Below are positions 29,475 through 36,894 of a stretch of 64,000 nt of DNA, piece by piece. The stretch's first letter is position 1. Each line of letters begins with the position of its first letter. The position numbers were made by a program, and so were the translations under genes. This stretch comes from SAR202 cluster bacterium Casp-Chloro-G4 (GTDB taxonomy: Bacteria; Chloroflexota; Dehalococcoidia; Lucifugimonadales; JADFKI01). The stretch spans positions 1-64,000 of the forward strand of contig MUCK01000024.1 of NCBI GenBank assembly GCA_002816705.1, given 5' to 3'. The notes below the pieces were generated by a model. That model worked only from the letters and a program-made list of their open reading frames with translations. It searched no databases and was not told the origin of the DNA.

Positions 29475-30131
29475 ATGAAAAAGCAAGTAATTGTAGTGGG
29501 GTTGGGGCGCTTCGGCTCCAGCGTTGCCACGTCACTTTACCATTTGGGCCACGACGTTCTCGCCATGGATAAGGATGAATCCAAGGTCCAAAATATGATG
29601 GGGCAAGCTACCCACGCCCTAACTGGCAACGCCACGGATGAGCACGTTTTCAGGGAGTTGGGCATACCAGATTACGATGTGGCCATAGTTTCGATCGGCT
29701 CGGACCTGGTTTCCAGCGTAATGGCCTCCGTGCTTCTGAAGACCATGGGCGTCCCCTACATCGTGGCCAGGGCGCACGACGAACTGCACGGCAACACACT
29801 AGAGCGCATAGGTGTCAACAGGGTGGTGTATGCCGAGTCGGAAATGGGTCTTCGCCTGGCGCATACGCTCTTCAACCCGAACGTCCAGGAGTACCTGGAA
29901 CTGACCCCAAACTTTGGGATAAGCAAGATTCTCGTCCCCAACAGGTTCGACGAGATGAGCCTCAAGGAGTTGGGGTTCTCCAGTCCTCGGGATAAATACG
30001 GCCTGGCCGTTCTGGCAATACGCCGTGGCAAGGACATAACCCTCAACCCGGACAGCGACGAACGTCTTCACGCTGGCGACTGGCTTGTGCTTGCCGGAAG
30101 AGACGACCTTCTGGACAATCTCGACACCTAA
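29475..30131 (+). CDS. TrkA/KtrA-type potassium uptake regulator
   Basis: A cytoplasmic gating ring subunit with an N-terminal RCK/TrkA-N Rossmann domain (VVGLGRFGSSVATSL; acidic ribose-binding end of strand 2 in AMDKDE) and a C-terminal TrkA-C domain (about 140-218; ISKILVPNRFDEMSLKELG, then GDWLVLAGRDDLLDNL). Its 218 residues match KtrA. It is 28 bp behind trkH, so it should partner that channel. Confidence 0.95.
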   Translation: MKKQVIVVGLGRFGSSVATSLYHLGHDVLAMDKDESKVQNMMGQATHALTGNATDEHVFRELGIPDYDVAIVSIGSDLVSSVMASVLLKTMGVPYIVARAHDELHGNTLERIGVNRVVYAESEMGLRLAHTLFNPNVQEYLELTPNFGISKILVPNRFDEMSLKELGFSSPRDKYGLAVLAIRRGKDITLNPDSDERLHAGDWLVLAGRDDLLDNLDT

Positions 30132-30176
30132 AATCCCCTTAAAGTGATTAGGTAATCGGCGTAGAAGGGCAGTGCC

Positions 30177-30629
30177 ATGGACATCTCAACTGCACTGGTA
30201 GCAGTACGAGGCGACGCCAACGATGACGAAGCCGTTAGGTTGGCTGGAGAGCTGCTTAACAGCTCCAAGAGCACCCTGTACATCCTGTACGTCATCGAAA
30301 TGGAGCGAGGCCTACCTCTCGACGCTGAGGTTGGTGCTTCGACTGCCAAAGGCGAGCAGGTCCTGAAACATATGGAAGATGTGGCCAAGCGCTTCAAATG
30401 CAAGACGGAGGCCCATCTGCTTCAGGCGAGGCAGGCCGGCGGCGCCGTCATTCAAGAGGCCGTCGAAAAGAAGGTCGAGGCCATAGTGATCAGCATGCCA
30501 TACATTGGCCAATATGCGGCATATTCGATTGGGGAAACGGTACCGTACGTCCTTAAGAATGCCCCCTGCCGCGTAATATTATGCCGCGGCGAGAGACCTG
30601 CCCCAGTCACCAATGAACGAAACCGCTAA
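30177..30629 (+). CDS. Universal stress protein (UspA family)
   Basis: A single Usp domain of 150 residues: STALVAVRGDANDDEAVRLA at the start, a central VIEMERGLP region, and a C-terminal VPYVLKNAPCRVILCRG, the typical last strand. The ATP-binding Gly-x2-Gly-x9-Gly is not clearly present (IVISMPYIGQYAAYSIGETV in its place), so it may be a non-ATP-binding type. Being inside the potassium operon, it may tune the transporter; Usp domains are often found with K+ transporters. Confidence 0.85.
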   Translation: MDISTALVAVRGDANDDEAVRLAGELLNSSKSTLYILYVIEMERGLPLDAEVGASTAKGEQVLKHMEDVAKRFKCKTEAHLLQARQAGGAVIQEAVEKKVEAIVISMPYIGQYAAYSIGETVPYVLKNAPCRVILCRGERPAPVTNERNR

Positions 30630-30663
30630 AGCCTTTCCATGATTCTTATATGTCAGCATACCT

Positions 30664-31110
30664 ATGACCACAAGTTCTAACGCCCGCACCAAGGGGCCAC
30701 CCACGACGGTAATCATGGGGTGCGGCAGGCTGGGCGCTTCCATAGCCCACAGCCTCCTGCAGGACGGCCATCGCATCTACATAATGGACATCCAGGCCAG
30801 CAACTTCGACAGGTTGCGCTCAGACCCAGTCCAATTAGGCCTCATCACCCCTATGGTGGGCGACGGCACGGTCTACGCCGACTTGCGGAAGACGCCAGTA
30901 AGAGATGCGGGTGTATTCATAGCCGTTTCCGGCAGGGACACTCAGAACGCCTTGGCCGCGCAAATCGCCAGGCATATTTTCGAGGTTCCAAATGTGATAT
31001 GCCGAATGAATGATCCCGATCGACAGGCCATGTACCAGGAGCTGGGGTTAAAGGCCATCAGCGGCATTAAGCCTTTGACTGATCTGGTTGTTAGGGCGGC
31101 AAAGGACTAA
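30664..31110 (+). CDS. Stand-alone TrkA-N (RCK) domain protein, first of a tandem pair
   Basis: A 148-residue Rossmann protein with the dinucleotide motif VIMGCGRLGASIAHSL, an Asp at the end of strand 2 (YIMDIQASNFD), VGDGTVYADLRKTPV and ICRMNDPDRQAMYQELGLK. It lacks the TrkA-C ligand-binding domain. Its stop shares one base with the next start (TAATG). With the next gene it may form a two-chain equivalent of the tandem RCK TrkA of enterobacteria. Confidence 0.88.
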   Translation: MTTSSNARTKGPPTTVIMGCGRLGASIAHSLLQDGHRIYIMDIQASNFDRLRSDPVQLGLITPMVGDGTVYADLRKTPVRDAGVFIAVSGRDTQNALAAQIARHIFEVPNVICRMNDPDRQAMYQELGLKAISGIKPLTDLVVRAAKD

Positions 31111-31529
31111 TGTACGCTATCATCGTGGGCGCAGGTAGGACTGGACTGGCGATCGCAAGCTGGCTCCTGAATGGGGAGAATGAGGTCACCGTGGTTGACA
31201 GGTCAGTCGCAAAGTGCGAATCTTTGGAAGACCTGTTTGGCGGCGTGGCCGTACTGGGCGACGGAGCCGAATACGGAGTCTTGGCCAAGGCGGGAACCAA
31301 CCGCGCAGACGTGGTGGTCGCCGCTACTGGAATGGATGACGTAAACCTTGTGACGTGCCAGATTGCGATGCACCGATTCGCAGTGAAAAGGACCGTGGCT
31401 GTTATTCAAAATCCCGAATACCAGGAGCTGTTCGAGACATTAGGGATCGGCACTGTCGTAAACGCGACCAGGATGATCACCGATAATATGATGAGCGCGC
31501 TGTCAGGCATTACCTCAGAAAGCCCATGA
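31110..31529 (+). CDS. Stand-alone TrkA-N (RCK) domain protein, second of the pair
   Basis: A 139-residue RCK Rossmann domain: YAIIVGAGRTGLAIASWLL, TVVDRSVAKCESL, LGDGAEYGVLAKAG, VVAATGMDDVNLV and AVIQNPEYQELFETLGI. No TrkA-C domain. Starting on the last base of the preceding stop, it is translationally coupled to its paralogue, which argues for a fixed stoichiometry. Confidence 0.88.
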   Translation: MYAIIVGAGRTGLAIASWLLNGENEVTVVDRSVAKCESLEDLFGGVAVLGDGAEYGVLAKAGTNRADVVVAATGMDDVNLVTCQIAMHRFAVKRTVAVIQNPEYQELFETLGIGTVVNATRMITDNMMSALSGITSESP

Positions 31530-31551: not shown

Positions 31552-32388
31552 ATGAAGAAGCGCCTATCCTACCTAGGCCCCGAGGGAACCTACACAGAAG
31601 AGGCCGCAACCAAGTATGACCCCGACGCCTACCTCGTATCCTGCCCCACGATAACCGCCGCCGCTAACGCCGCCGAATCCGGCGATGCTGATGAGGCTGT
31701 GCTACCCATTGAAAACAGTTTGGGAGGCGCGGTGGCAGAAACCCTGGACCTGTTGATTCACCAGTCCAAACTGCAAATTCGCAGTGAGATAGTCCTGCCT
31801 ATTCACCACTGCATTATGGCCAAGCACGACACTAATCCGGCCGATGTCAGCGTCGTGTTCTCCCATCCACAGTCGCTGGCCCAATGCAGAGGTTACCTGG
31901 AGCGCCATTACCCTAATGCCCGACTAGTCGCATCGTTGAGCAATTCCGCGGCAGTAGGGGAGATGCAAGCCAGCGAAGAGACTGCCGCAGCGATAGCAGG
32001 TCGGCGAGCGGCGGAGCTATATCAGGCAAACGTCCTTGACCGGGAGATTGAAGACAACCCCAGTAACGCCACTCGATTCGTCGTCATGGGCCACACCGAT
32101 CACGAACCCACCGGTAACGATAAGACCTCGTTATGCTTCGACTTCAAATCAGACGCGCCCGGTATACTGGTCGTCGCATTAGGCGAATTCTCCAATCGAG
32201 ACCTAAATCTCAACAAGATAGAGTCTCGTCCTACGCGATTGGGATTGGGACGTTACATCTTCCTTGTGGACATCGACGGGCATAGGCAGGACGCTAAGGT
32301 GGTTGAAGCGTTGGATGCCCTGAGGAAGCATGTTTCCATGCTGAAGGTGCTGGGATCGTACCCCAAGGAAGTCTCCTCCTCAATTTAA
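31552..32388 (+). CDS. pheA: Prephenate dehydratase with ACT domain
   Basis: Converts prephenate to phenylpyruvate in phenylalanine synthesis. It begins with the family SYLGPEGTYTEEAA, has LPIENSLGGAVAETLDLL, the catalytic TRF motif in SNATRFVVMG and a C-terminal ACT regulatory domain with the ESRP-type site (NLNKIESRPTRLGLGRY), which binds phenylalanine for feedback control. At 278 residues it is the stand-alone type with no chorismate mutase domain. It ends the potassium operon 22 bp behind the last TrkA-N gene, an unrelated function probably carried by operon position. Confidence 0.95.
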   Translation: MKKRLSYLGPEGTYTEEAATKYDPDAYLVSCPTITAAANAAESGDADEAVLPIENSLGGAVAETLDLLIHQSKLQIRSEIVLPIHHCIMAKHDTNPADVSVVFSHPQSLAQCRGYLERHYPNARLVASLSNSAAVGEMQASEETAAAIAGRRAAELYQANVLDREIEDNPSNATRFVVMGHTDHEPTGNDKTSLCFDFKSDAPGILVVALGEFSNRDLNLNKIESRPTRLGLGRYIFLVDIDGHRQDAKVVEALDALRKHVSMLKVLGSYPKEVSSSI

Positions 32389-33427: not shown

Positions 33428-34417
33428 TTACGGTTGTATCAGCATCCTTACGAACCCAGCCGGATCTTTTCGCTGAGTGATGATGCTATGGTTTCGGTTC
33501 TCAGCCCAGACGATTACGTCGTAGGTATTCAGCACGTCCGGTATGACAACTTCGACGAAGGACTTGGAGTCCTGACCAATTTGCTCGGTCAACGCTGCAA
33601 TTATGCCCGCGCATGTCTTGCCAGTGCCGTCGATGATTACCCAGCCGTTGTCCGAAGTGCCGTTGGTCCCATTTGTGCCATTGCCAGCAGACGCGTAAAC
33701 GTCTACCTCACCAGTGAGGCGCATGTCCACCTGCCGCTTGAACTCGGCCACCGGCTCCCAATGCACGCTGGACTCTCGATCGCCCTTCGTGCAGGCGGCG
33801 CCGCGTACCCCGACGATGTCCGGGTTGATGCGAGCGAGTTCATCCAGGTCCTTAAGGGCCAGATGACCGGAAAGAGCAGTACTCATGCCAGCTTCCTTAC
33901 CCTCCAGGACCATCTCCTTCAACTCATCCTCGCGGACAAAGTCGAAAAGGTTTCGCCCGTCTTTGGTAAGGGTGTCCAACAGCCAGCCATCGCACTTGGT
34001 CTCCTTGGCCAGCTTATTCATGTAATGAGGTTCCAGGCCGCCGTACAGCATGTTATCGGCGAAAATACAGCCGATGAGCTTGGTTTCGAAGCCATCCAAG
34101 ACCTCACGGCAGGCGTTCAGAGTCTCCGCCGCCACCGCGTATTCGGTGTCCATAAACCCCACCTTCACCGAGGTCGCTCGAAGAACGCCCGCAGTGTAGA
34201 CCGCCATGGCCACGGTGCCAATCTGATTGGGGACTACGCCCAAGGTCACACTGGCGTGTCGATCCATGGGAATTGCGTTTCTCACGTCCCGCACTATGTG
34301 GGGGTGCGCTGACCCGACCCGAGCCTCCTGGAGGTTCTTGACGTCGACAATATCGGCCCCGCCCTTCAGTGCTTGAAGTGCTTCTTCCAGGTTCTGGACG
34401 CTAACCATAAGAATCAT
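33428..34417 (-). CDS. (5-formylfuran-3-yl)methyl phosphate synthase-like (MfnB) with C-terminal TusA-like domain
   Basis: MfnB joins two glyceraldehyde-3-phosphates to the furan precursor of methanofuran. The N-terminal 230 residues are clearly MfnB-like: GGADIVDVKN with Lys27, SVKVGFMD with Lys85, LLDTLTKDG with Asp148 and Lys152, then PDIVGVRGAACTKGDR. These positions match the catalytic Lys27, Lys85, Asp151 and Lys155 of the archaeal enzyme as I recall them. A linker with NGT repeats (246-254) leads to about 70 residues resembling TusA/SirA (IIDGTGKTCAGIIAAL with Cys269; then NTYDVIVWAENRNHSI), though the usual Cys-x-Pro has lost its Pro. It lies 19 bp behind the DapA-family gene. Methanofuran in this lineage would be unusual; a different furan or sulfur-linked product is possible. 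Confidence 0.85.
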   Translation of the reverse strand: MILMVSVQNLEEALQALKGGADIVDVKNLQEARVGSAHPHIVRDVRNAIPMDRHASVTLGVVPNQIGTVAMAVYTAGVLRATSVKVGFMDTEYAVAAETLNACREVLDGFETKLIGCIFADNMLYGGLEPHYMNKLAKETKCDGWLLDTLTKDGRNLFDFVREDELKEMVLEGKEAGMSTALSGHLALKDLDELARINPDIVGVRGAACTKGDRESSVHWEPVAEFKRQVDMRLTGEVDVYASAGNGTNGTNGTSDNGWVIIDGTGKTCAGIIAALTEQIGQDSKSFVEVVIPDVLNTYDVIVWAENRNHSIITQRKDPAGFVRMLIQP

Positions 34418-34436
34418 TGTTTTATCTCACTAAACT

Positions 34437-35408
34437 CTATATTTTCTGCAAGGCCTCTTCTACGTCCTGTTTCACCTGCGCCTTGATCTCGTCGGTGAAA
34501 TTGATGTGTGGCTGGCGTACGTGTCCGCCGGCCATACCCATAAGCTCGCCCCAGTACTTACAAAGAGGAGCGGGCAGGGCACCATTGGCCATCTCGACCG
34601 TCCGCTTCCACCATTTGTCTGAAACATCCTTGATAGGTTTCACGTGGGTGTCGTAGAACGCCCTGTCCAGATCGCCTCGCATGGCCTTGTCGATGAACTG
34701 GTTGTAGTAGTTCTTCTCAGGGGTGTCGAAACGCCAATCGGACGTATTGGCGAACATTACCTGCTGTTCAAAGCCCATCTCTTTGCCTTTGAACATGATC
34801 CACTCGTCCGGTGTGCTAATGATGGCGTCGCGGCCCAACCTGGTGTGGGCCTCTATGGACAGCTCCGGATTGAAGCTGGCTTCCTTTACGCCTACGACAT
34901 TGGGAATCTCGCATATAGAACCCAAGCCGTCTGCGCTCATAACGATGCCAAACTGTGGAGAGTTGTAATACATAATTGCGAGGTCGGTGTTGTCGGCCAG
35001 CATCTTGACCCAGTCGATAACCTGTCCCTCAGTTTTGGTGACCATGTAGGGCGCGGCCACTATGAGGAGATCGAATCCAACACCCTCGGCATGCTTGGCC
35101 AGGGCAATCATATCCTTGTACGAGGTATGGGTGACGTGGGCCGCTATGGGCCACTCCCCGCCAGCCTCGTCGGCCGAAACGCTGTACACACGAAGCCGCT
35201 CTGCCATCGTAAGGCTCCAGAATTCACCCATTGCCCAGGTGCAGCCTCCGCCCTGGGTACCCAGGGAGCGGACATGTCGAATATTATGCCTGAGGCCCTC
35301 CTCGTCTAGCTCGTCCTCCGGAGTAAAGGGCGTCATCAGAGTAGTCCACTGGCCACGCAAATTCTCGCGGGCCCAATCCATTGCTTCAGCTTTAGTATAT
35401 TCAGCCAA
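34437..35408 (-). CDS. DapA/NAL-family class I aldolase
   Basis: A Schiff-base aldolase or hydrolyase of 323 residues in the dihydrodipicolinate synthase/N-acetylneuraminate lyase family. It has LMTPFTPEDELDEEGL at the N-terminus, the catalytic Tyr in LAIMYYNSP (147/148) and the Schiff-base Lys175 in VVGVKEASFN. The family GxTGE motif is altered (TQGGGCTWAMGEF), so I do not call it dapA; the substrate is open. The start is TTG with AAAGGAGG 6 nt upstream. It is the first gene of a two-gene operon with the MfnB-TusA gene, driven by a strong promoter. Confidence 0.88.
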   Translation of the reverse strand: MAEYTKAEAMDWARENLRGQWTTLMTPFTPEDELDEEGLRHNIRHVRSLGTQGGGCTWAMGEFWSLTMAERLRVYSVSADEAGGEWPIAAHVTHTSYKDMIALAKHAEGVGFDLLIVAAPYMVTKTEGQVIDWVKMLADNTDLAIMYYNSPQFGIVMSADGLGSICEIPNVVGVKEASFNPELSIEAHTRLGRDAIISTPDEWIMFKGKEMGFEQQVMFANTSDWRFDTPEKNYYNQFIDKAMRGDLDRAFYDTHVKPIKDVSDKWWKRTVEMANGALPAPLCKYWGELMGMAGGHVRQPHINFTDEIKAQVKQDVEEALQKI

Positions 35409-35515
35409 CCCCCACCTCCTTTTGGCGCTTTCGCTTAAGGCACCTTAGCCAGACTTCAGGGTAGCCAAAAATCGGCACAATTCCCCAACGTAAAAGGCCG
35501 GTTTCATCGGAGTTT

Positions 35516-35544
35516 ATGATAGCTACGGCCCCTGCCTATGTCAA
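35516..35544 (-). promoter_or_regulatory. Promoter of the aldolase-MfnB operon
   Basis: Minus strand: perfect -35 TTGACA (35539-35544), 17-bp spacer, -10 TATCAT (35516-35521). The leader to the TTG start is about 100 nt, with no recognised riboswitch. Confidence 0.65.
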
Positions 35545-35640: not shown

Positions 35641-36894
35641 TTATTCGGAGTCCCAGAGCTTGAAAAGATCCCTAGCGGCCAGCAAATGGGACTTGTCTAC
35701 GCCCCGTTTGAGAGCTGAGGTGGGGTCGTGCAAAAGCCTATTCACGATGGATTTCGTTAGAGCATCGACGGCGCTCATCTGATCCTCAGAGAGTCCTTCT
35801 AATTTGGACACCGCTCTGGACATCTCTTTCTGGCGAATATGTTCTGCCTGCTTTCGGAGGGCCCGTATAGTAGGCAGAACATCCAGCGTGTCCCACCAGG
35901 TCATGAACTTGGCCACCTCTTCGGCAACGACCTTCTCTGCTTCGACTGCGGCCCGCTTGCGCTCCTCGAGGTTCTCCTCTGCGATGGCGGAAAGGTCGTC
36001 GATATTGAAAAGGTTTACGTCCCGCATTGATGAAACGGCCGGGTCCACATCCCTGGGTACTGCCAGGTCAAACAGAAACAGAGGGGCTTCCCTGTTTCCG
36101 GAAAATGCCTGACTAACCATGTCCTGAGTAACGATGAAGCTTGGAGAGTCGGTTGCAGAGATGGCTATGTCCGCCTGACTGAGGCTGTCCGTTATCTCAT
36201 CAAAGGGAATAGTCCGGCCATTCAGGTACTCCGCAAGCTCCTCGGCCCGCTCCAGCGTACGATTGGCGACCATCACGTCGGCGACACCGGATGTTCGCAG
36301 AGCGCTAGCCACTAGTCTGCCGGCCTCTCCCGCACCAATAAGCAACACTCTGGAGGATTCCAGTTTGCCTAAAGTGCGCTGCGCCAGCTTTACACCAGCG
36401 TAGCTTATGGACAACGGGTTTCGACCCACGGAGGTCTCTTCCCGTACACGTCGACCAGTCTGGATAGCAGAGTGGAACAGCCCCAGGGTTGAGACTTCCA
36501 CCGACTGGGCCTCTGAGGCGGAGCTTAACGAGTCCCGCACCTGGCCCAATATCTGCGATTCGCCAACGATCATAGAGTCCAACCCACCGGCTACTCTAAA
36601 TAAATGGTGTACGGCGTCCGCCCCAGTGTAGTCATAGAAATGCGGCGAGACAGCATCCCGTGAGAGGCCATGAAATTCCGTAACGTAGGCGTGTACCTTT
36701 GCTGCGGTTTTGGAGGGGTCTGCCGTTATAGCGTAAATCTCCGTCCTGTTGCAGGTGGAGAGAATTACGCATTCCCCGACCCTTTCCTTAAGACCGGAAA
36801 GGGCGACGGGAAGTTGATCGTTTAGAAATGATACGGATTCTCTGACTTCCAGAGGGGCGGTTTTATGGCTAAGACCAACCAGCAATATCTGCAA
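35641..36894 (-). CDS. hemA: Glutamyl-tRNA reductase
   Basis: Reduces glutamyl-tRNA to glutamate-1-semialdehyde, the first committed step of heme and other tetrapyrroles in the C5 pathway. It has LVGLSHKTAPLEVRE, the nucleophile Cys50 in ILSTCNRTEIYA, GESQILGQVRDS, the NADPH-binding LLIGAGEAGRLVASAL and a C-terminal dimerisation helix. At 417 residues it is full length. It lies 6 bp downstream of rpmB; no other hem genes are in the window. Confidence 0.97.
   Translation of the reverse strand: MQILLVGLSHKTAPLEVRESVSFLNDQLPVALSGLKERVGECVILSTCNRTEIYAITADPSKTAAKVHAYVTEFHGLSRDAVSPHFYDYTGADAVHHLFRVAGGLDSMIVGESQILGQVRDSLSSASEAQSVEVSTLGLFHSAIQTGRRVREETSVGRNPLSISYAGVKLAQRTLGKLESSRVLLIGAGEAGRLVASALRTSGVADVMVANRTLERAEELAEYLNGRTIPFDEITDSLSQADIAISATDSPSFIVTQDMVSQAFSGNREAPLFLFDLAVPRDVDPAVSSMRDVNLFNIDDLSAIAEENLEERKRAAVEAEKVVAEEVAKFMTWWDTLDVLPTIRALRKQAEHIRQKEMSRAVSKLEGLSEDQMSAVDALTKSIVNRLLHDPTSALKRGVDKSHLLAARDLFKLWDSE

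Follow-up and report, generated by a model that had tools for sequence, protein, structure and literature searches.

A conserved aldolase/MfnB-TusA gene pair in SAR202 bacteria as a candidate furan-forming enzyme system

Organization of the locus

The window – the whole 64,000-nucleotide stretch that was analyzed – comes from contig G000:C24 of a draft genome (1.36-Mb, 67%-complete) of a SAR202 bacterium (Chloroflexota). Two ORFs on its minus strand proved to be as an earlier sequence-only reading had described them: an aldolase ORF (34437-35408; 323 aa, TTG start) comes first and is followed, after a gap of 19 nt, by the MfnB-TusA ORF (33428-34417; 329 aa, ATG start). From the sequence, a strong ribosome-binding site (AGGAGG; 35415..35420, minus strand) lies 6 nt ahead of the aldolase TTG. 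A possible sigma-70-type promoter (TTGACA-17-TATCAT; 35516..35544, minus strand, thus read 35544-35516) has an 11/12 match; the "strong promoter" previously credited to the gene pair is nonetheless an overstatement, because the count of such 11/12-type sites is at the level expected by chance in a comparison with shuffled sequence. Upstream of the aldolase, on the same strand, a HemA (glutamyl-tRNA reductase)-like ORF ends at 35641.

The MfnB domain

Residues 1-230 of the MfnB-TusA protein (33728..34417, minus strand) form an MfnB-like (4-HFC-P synthase) domain. The window protein matches PF04476 over residues 3-226 (9.1e-54; 183 bits against a cut-off of 22.4) and, among PDB sequences, MJ1099/MfnB, whose structure is solved, at 2.5e-41. 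The four catalytic positions of the sequence-only reading – K27 (codon 34339-34337), K85 (34165-34163), D148 (33976-33974) and K152 (33964-33962), all on the minus strand – align with K27, K85, D151 and K155 of MJ1099 and are invariant in 51/51 distinct orthologues; the proposed MfnB-like N-terminus thus holds, and a proper alignment retains the catalytic lysines throughout. Lys27, Lys85 and Asp151 of MJ1099 we take to be catalytic positions; Lys155 is catalytic (PMC11365854). At 189 bits the window protein does not reach the NCBIfam equivalog cut-off (NF002573, 341 bits) and therefore represents a divergent MfnB subfamily. While the domain is the same as that of MJ1099 (PDB 4rc1, 4u9p), the SAR202 protein differs from MJ1099-type MfnB in bearing a TusA-fold domain, in being paired or fused with a DHDPS aldolase, and in residing in hosts without a methanofuran/H4MPT pathway.

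The linker and the TusA-fold domain

The MfnB domain is followed by a flexible Gly/Asn/Thr-rich linker (NGTNGTNGT; residues 231-257, 33647..33727, minus strand), noted before as an NGT-repeat linker, whose length and sequence are free to vary among orthologues. Beyond it, residues 258-329 (33431..33646, minus strand) constitute a TusA-fold domain. The window copy alone gives a weak TusA match (E 0.057); PF01206 is matched by 36/36 orthologous tails (best E 1.9e-7), and in a whole-genome search its curated Pfam cut-off is passed in two genomes (G073 and G086). The AF2 model of the domain (pLDDT 94.8) has its best Foldseek matches in the PDB in SirA-like 3hz7 (TM 0.82), IscS-bound E. coli TusA, YhhP and YeeD, with E-values that are weak (0.01-0.03), as is usual at a length of 74 residues. 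A profile of the C-terminal domain found no match among PDB sequences, whereas fold and Pfam searches did match. The TusA/SirA-like C-terminus of the earlier reading is thus borne out, also by structure.

The domain resembles the TusA/SirA/YeeD carriers (PF01206) in its fold and in placing a cysteine where their active site lies: Cys269 (33613-33611, minus strand) is invariant in 51/51 orthologues, and E289, D300, W304, H310 and R324 are likewise invariant. It differs from them in having C-A-[GS]-[IV] in place of CPxP, with loss of both prolines. The cysteine of the CPxP motif is the sulfur receiver in TusA (PMC11073785), and loss of the prolines renders sulfur transfer uncertain. A second difference is that the domain occurs as an MfnB tail only: a tail-only profile found no copy away from MfnB in 98 relatives, the matches coming from the same 59 genomes that carry the full-length protein. 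As a separate observation, TusA (PF01206) matches also lie within ORFs of about 511-514 codons (G029:C1:944404-945280 and G013:C13:7756-8596, L072), near each of which an ORF of 102-104 codons also matches TusA.

The aldolase

The aldolase (34437..35408, minus strand) belongs to the DHDPS superfamily of Schiff-base enzymes (PF00701, 2.5e-28; 99 bits against a cut-off of 22.1). Both the Schiff-base Lys175 (34886-34884) and the active-site Tyr148 are invariant (48/48), and the top Foldseek matches of the AF2 model (pLDDT 92.9) are DHDPS, NAL and YagE. Fold, lysine and tyrosine are common to the DHDPS/NAL superfamily (DapA, NanA, YagE, KdgD, NahE), while identity to these enzymes is 18-23%. The enzyme, previously labeled "DapA-family", is not DapA itself: the TIGR00674 (DapA) cut-off is not reached (72 against 206 bits), and none of the E. 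coli DapA residues Thr44, Thr45, Tyr107 and Arg138 is kept. Gly/Ala-Met stands in place of Thr44-Thr45, Tyr107 gives way to Met, Phe or other residues, and there is no equivalent of Arg138. With the pyruvate-binding Thr-Thr of DHDPS replaced, the donor could be other than pyruvate.

In the subfamily tree the aldolases sit on long branches, with no placement resolved. The nearest relatives on sequenced plasmids (28-32% identity) adjoin, in alphaproteobacteria, genes for 3-hydroxyanthranilate dioxygenase or aspartate dehydrogenase. These nearest outside relatives suggest catabolism of aromatic compounds, which counts against the explanation that we prefer below.

Distribution, linkage and natural fusion

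Full-length MfnB-TusA is present in 59/98 SAR202-order relatives, and the aldolase in 58 genomes of this same set; the shortfall is a genome (G001) in which the last 60 aldolase residues are at a contig end. A further 300 genomes from across the phylum yielded no copy of the MfnB-TusA protein. Among the genomes searched the gene pair is thus found in SAR202 only; the scan of the whole collection outside Chloroflexota was sensitive to close relatives only, so that carriers may exist elsewhere. Across the sampled loci the aldolase and MfnB-TusA genes are direct neighbors in constant order, -4 to 182 nt apart. The one exception (G070) has them on different scaffolds of an assembly with runs of N. 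The architecture and its aldolase neighbor therefore do recur, and the pair is co-inherited across SAR202. The GC content of the sampled loci ranges from 29% to 66%, and conservation of the active sites over this range thus reflects selection on the protein.

In ten genomes aldolase, MfnB and TusA form a single in-frame protein of about 700 residues (open frames of 682-732 codons); in an eleventh (G084) the fusion is cut at a contig end. All fused genes fall into one clade of the gene tree with 100/100 support: the fusion thus probably arose once, and the tree speaks against multiple independent fusions.

No third gene constantly accompanies the pair, and neighbors vary among lineages. A wider operon was considered and rejected, since genes for prephenate dehydratase, TrkA-like and DegV-like proteins and HemA – names that are our own interpretation of the sequences – are syntenic in some lineages only and changed in the fused clade. 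In the window, three ORFs that we read as TrkA-N-like NAD-binding proteins stand in tandem with a presumed universal-stress-like ORF (29475-31529) by the prephenate dehydratase gene (31552-32388), a tandem that is retained in many SAR202 loci.

Several individual genomes stand out. One (G022, 10% contamination) holds two copies of the whole aldolase/MfnB-TusA unit (L059, L060). Copies from two genomes of different families (G055, L062; G095, L058) pair with full support in the gene tree, a grouping that suggests the intact unit has been transferred. Another genome, a single contig of 3,094,136 bp (G090:C1, L095), is without either gene.

Function of the gene pair

Linkage and fusion strongly imply that the aldolase acts in the MfnB pathway, and we infer, with good support, that the outcome of the pair is a furan metabolite. 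One alternative is a C1 carrier, as the wording of the sequence-only reading suggests. MfnB performs the furan-forming step in methanofuran and is assumed to play the same role in methylofuran (PMC8141765), which favors a pathway for bacterial methylofuran or another C1 carrier. Mch (PF02289), MfnF (TIGR03123) and Fae (PF08714), however, each scored 0/31 in a search of 31 SAR202 genomes, 23 of which have a completeness of 90% or more and a contamination of 5% or less; archaeal controls were positive. TIGR03123 is here taken to be the MfnF model. Nor were C1 genes found near the aldolase/MfnB-TusA loci. With Mch, MfnF and Fae absent, a role in methylofuran/H4MPT metabolism is very unlikely; thus, from the former interpretation, fusion, MfnB active site, TusA fold and aldolase link stand, and the C1-carrier idea is not supported. 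Replacement of a housekeeping step, in lysine (DapA) or thiamine thiazole (ThiG) synthesis, is likewise very unlikely. The aldolase does have a DHDPS fold, a TIM barrel joined to a sulfur-carrier fold does resemble the logic of ThiG, and true ThiG is missing from 13 MfnB-positive (and 3 MfnB-negative) genomes. Yet a true DapA, scoring over the cut-off, is encoded elsewhere in 29/31 genomes, and most MfnB-positive genomes retain ThiG, its losses being concentrated in few families.

Our preferred explanation, held with a confidence a little short of even, is that the operon of two genes, merged into one in a sub-clade, specifies enzymes that form a furan independently of C1-carrier metabolism and work in three steps. 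Directly established, and the basis of the scheme, are the joint inheritance of the genes and their fusion, the intact residues of MfnB and of the Schiff-base site, and a TusA fold with a fixed cysteine. The MfnB domain would condense two glyceraldehyde-3-phosphates to 4-HFC-P, a furan aldehyde that is aromatic and reactive; homology and the intact residues support this step well. The DHDPS-type Schiff-base enzyme would act on the intermediates of this reaction, and most likely uses up the furan aldehyde by a class I aldol addition, in which a small keto compound or aldehyde is the donor and an extended furan results. The TusA-fold domain, held by its linker and bearing one invariant cysteine, may swing from barrel to barrel as a carrier, loaded either with persulfide sulfur or with the aldehyde in thiohemiacetal form. 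The end product would be a furan metabolite not yet described, perhaps one with sulfur in it. The scheme draws support from the invariance of the MfnB residues, aldolase Lys175/Tyr148 and Cys269; from co-occurrence, adjacency, the single-origin fusion and a TusA tail of confirmed fold restricted to MfnB; and from the Gly/Asn linker, the absence of Mch, MfnF and Fae, and the lack of a constant third gene. Against it are the lost CPxP prolines, the replaced DHDPS Thr-Thr and the separate scaffolds of the one exceptional genome. In its most specific form the proposal is distinctly more tentative: aldolase, MfnB and TusA would make up a trifunctional machine whose tethered cysteine shuttles the furan aldehyde, or sulfur, from one Schiff-base barrel to the other, and whose product is a cofactor or metabolite of furan type that is undescribed and possibly contains sulfur.

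The part assigned to the cysteine can also be read otherwise. If the TusA-like domain served for docking, oligomerisation or ligand sensing instead, the product would be a plain furan made without sulfur or thiol chemistry; the loss of CPxP fits such a role, and the invariant E289, D300, W304, H310 and R324 may form a binding surface. A cysteine kept in 51/51 orthologues at the TusA active-site position, in loci so divergent in GC, speaks against this, and we consider it rather unlikely. The aldolase, for its part, could stand upstream of MfnB, as a keto-deoxy-sugar-acid aldolase releasing glyceraldehyde-3-phosphate for conversion to 4-HFC-P. Its place ahead of MfnB in both operon and fusion would then make domain order the reaction order, KDG-type aldolases belong to the DHDPS superfamily, and YagE is among the Foldseek matches. 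Enolase-family enzymes include sugar-acid dehydratase activity. Their expansion in SAR202 (PMC6946804) also favors such a supply. Glyceraldehyde-3-phosphate is nevertheless a common glycolytic metabolite for which a dedicated fused supplier is hardly needed, identity to YagE is just 20%, and the pyruvate-site residues differ: the supply role is a live rival, though an improbable one.

Relation to known systems

Each domain is already known; as far as the literature searched (chiefly open-access) shows, the MfnB-TusA architecture and its aldolase association are undescribed. No paper in that literature connects SAR202 to formylfuran, methanofuran or dihydrodipicolinate synthase. We see the pair as a variation on a known kind of enzyme, with a new pathway plausibly behind it. 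Of the prokaryotes in deep-sea plankton, 10-30% are SAR202 (PMC10444878). Their chemistry is mostly inferred, and the gene pair opens a definite enzymatic route toward an unknown metabolite. A conserved, dedicated furan-forming pair in the absence of a C1 pathway suggests that MfnB chemistry has been repurposed; thanks to the natural three-domain fusion, a single expression construct would be enough to test this idea.

On Streptomyces plasmids (L073:12001-16263, L074:11980-16437, L075:9980-14350), MfnB stands in a conserved cassette together with genes for an aldehyde dehydrogenase, an alcohol dehydrogenase and a SAM methyltransferase. For this MfnB (about 37% identity) the tblastn match ends at the MfnB domain, the length of the gene leaves no room for a TusA tail and, unlike the SAR202 pair, the cassette has no DHDPS partner. 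It is apparently a non-C1 furan cassette, which suggests another furan pathway outside C1 metabolism, and this apparent second use of MfnB makes metabolite-forming MfnBs more believable.
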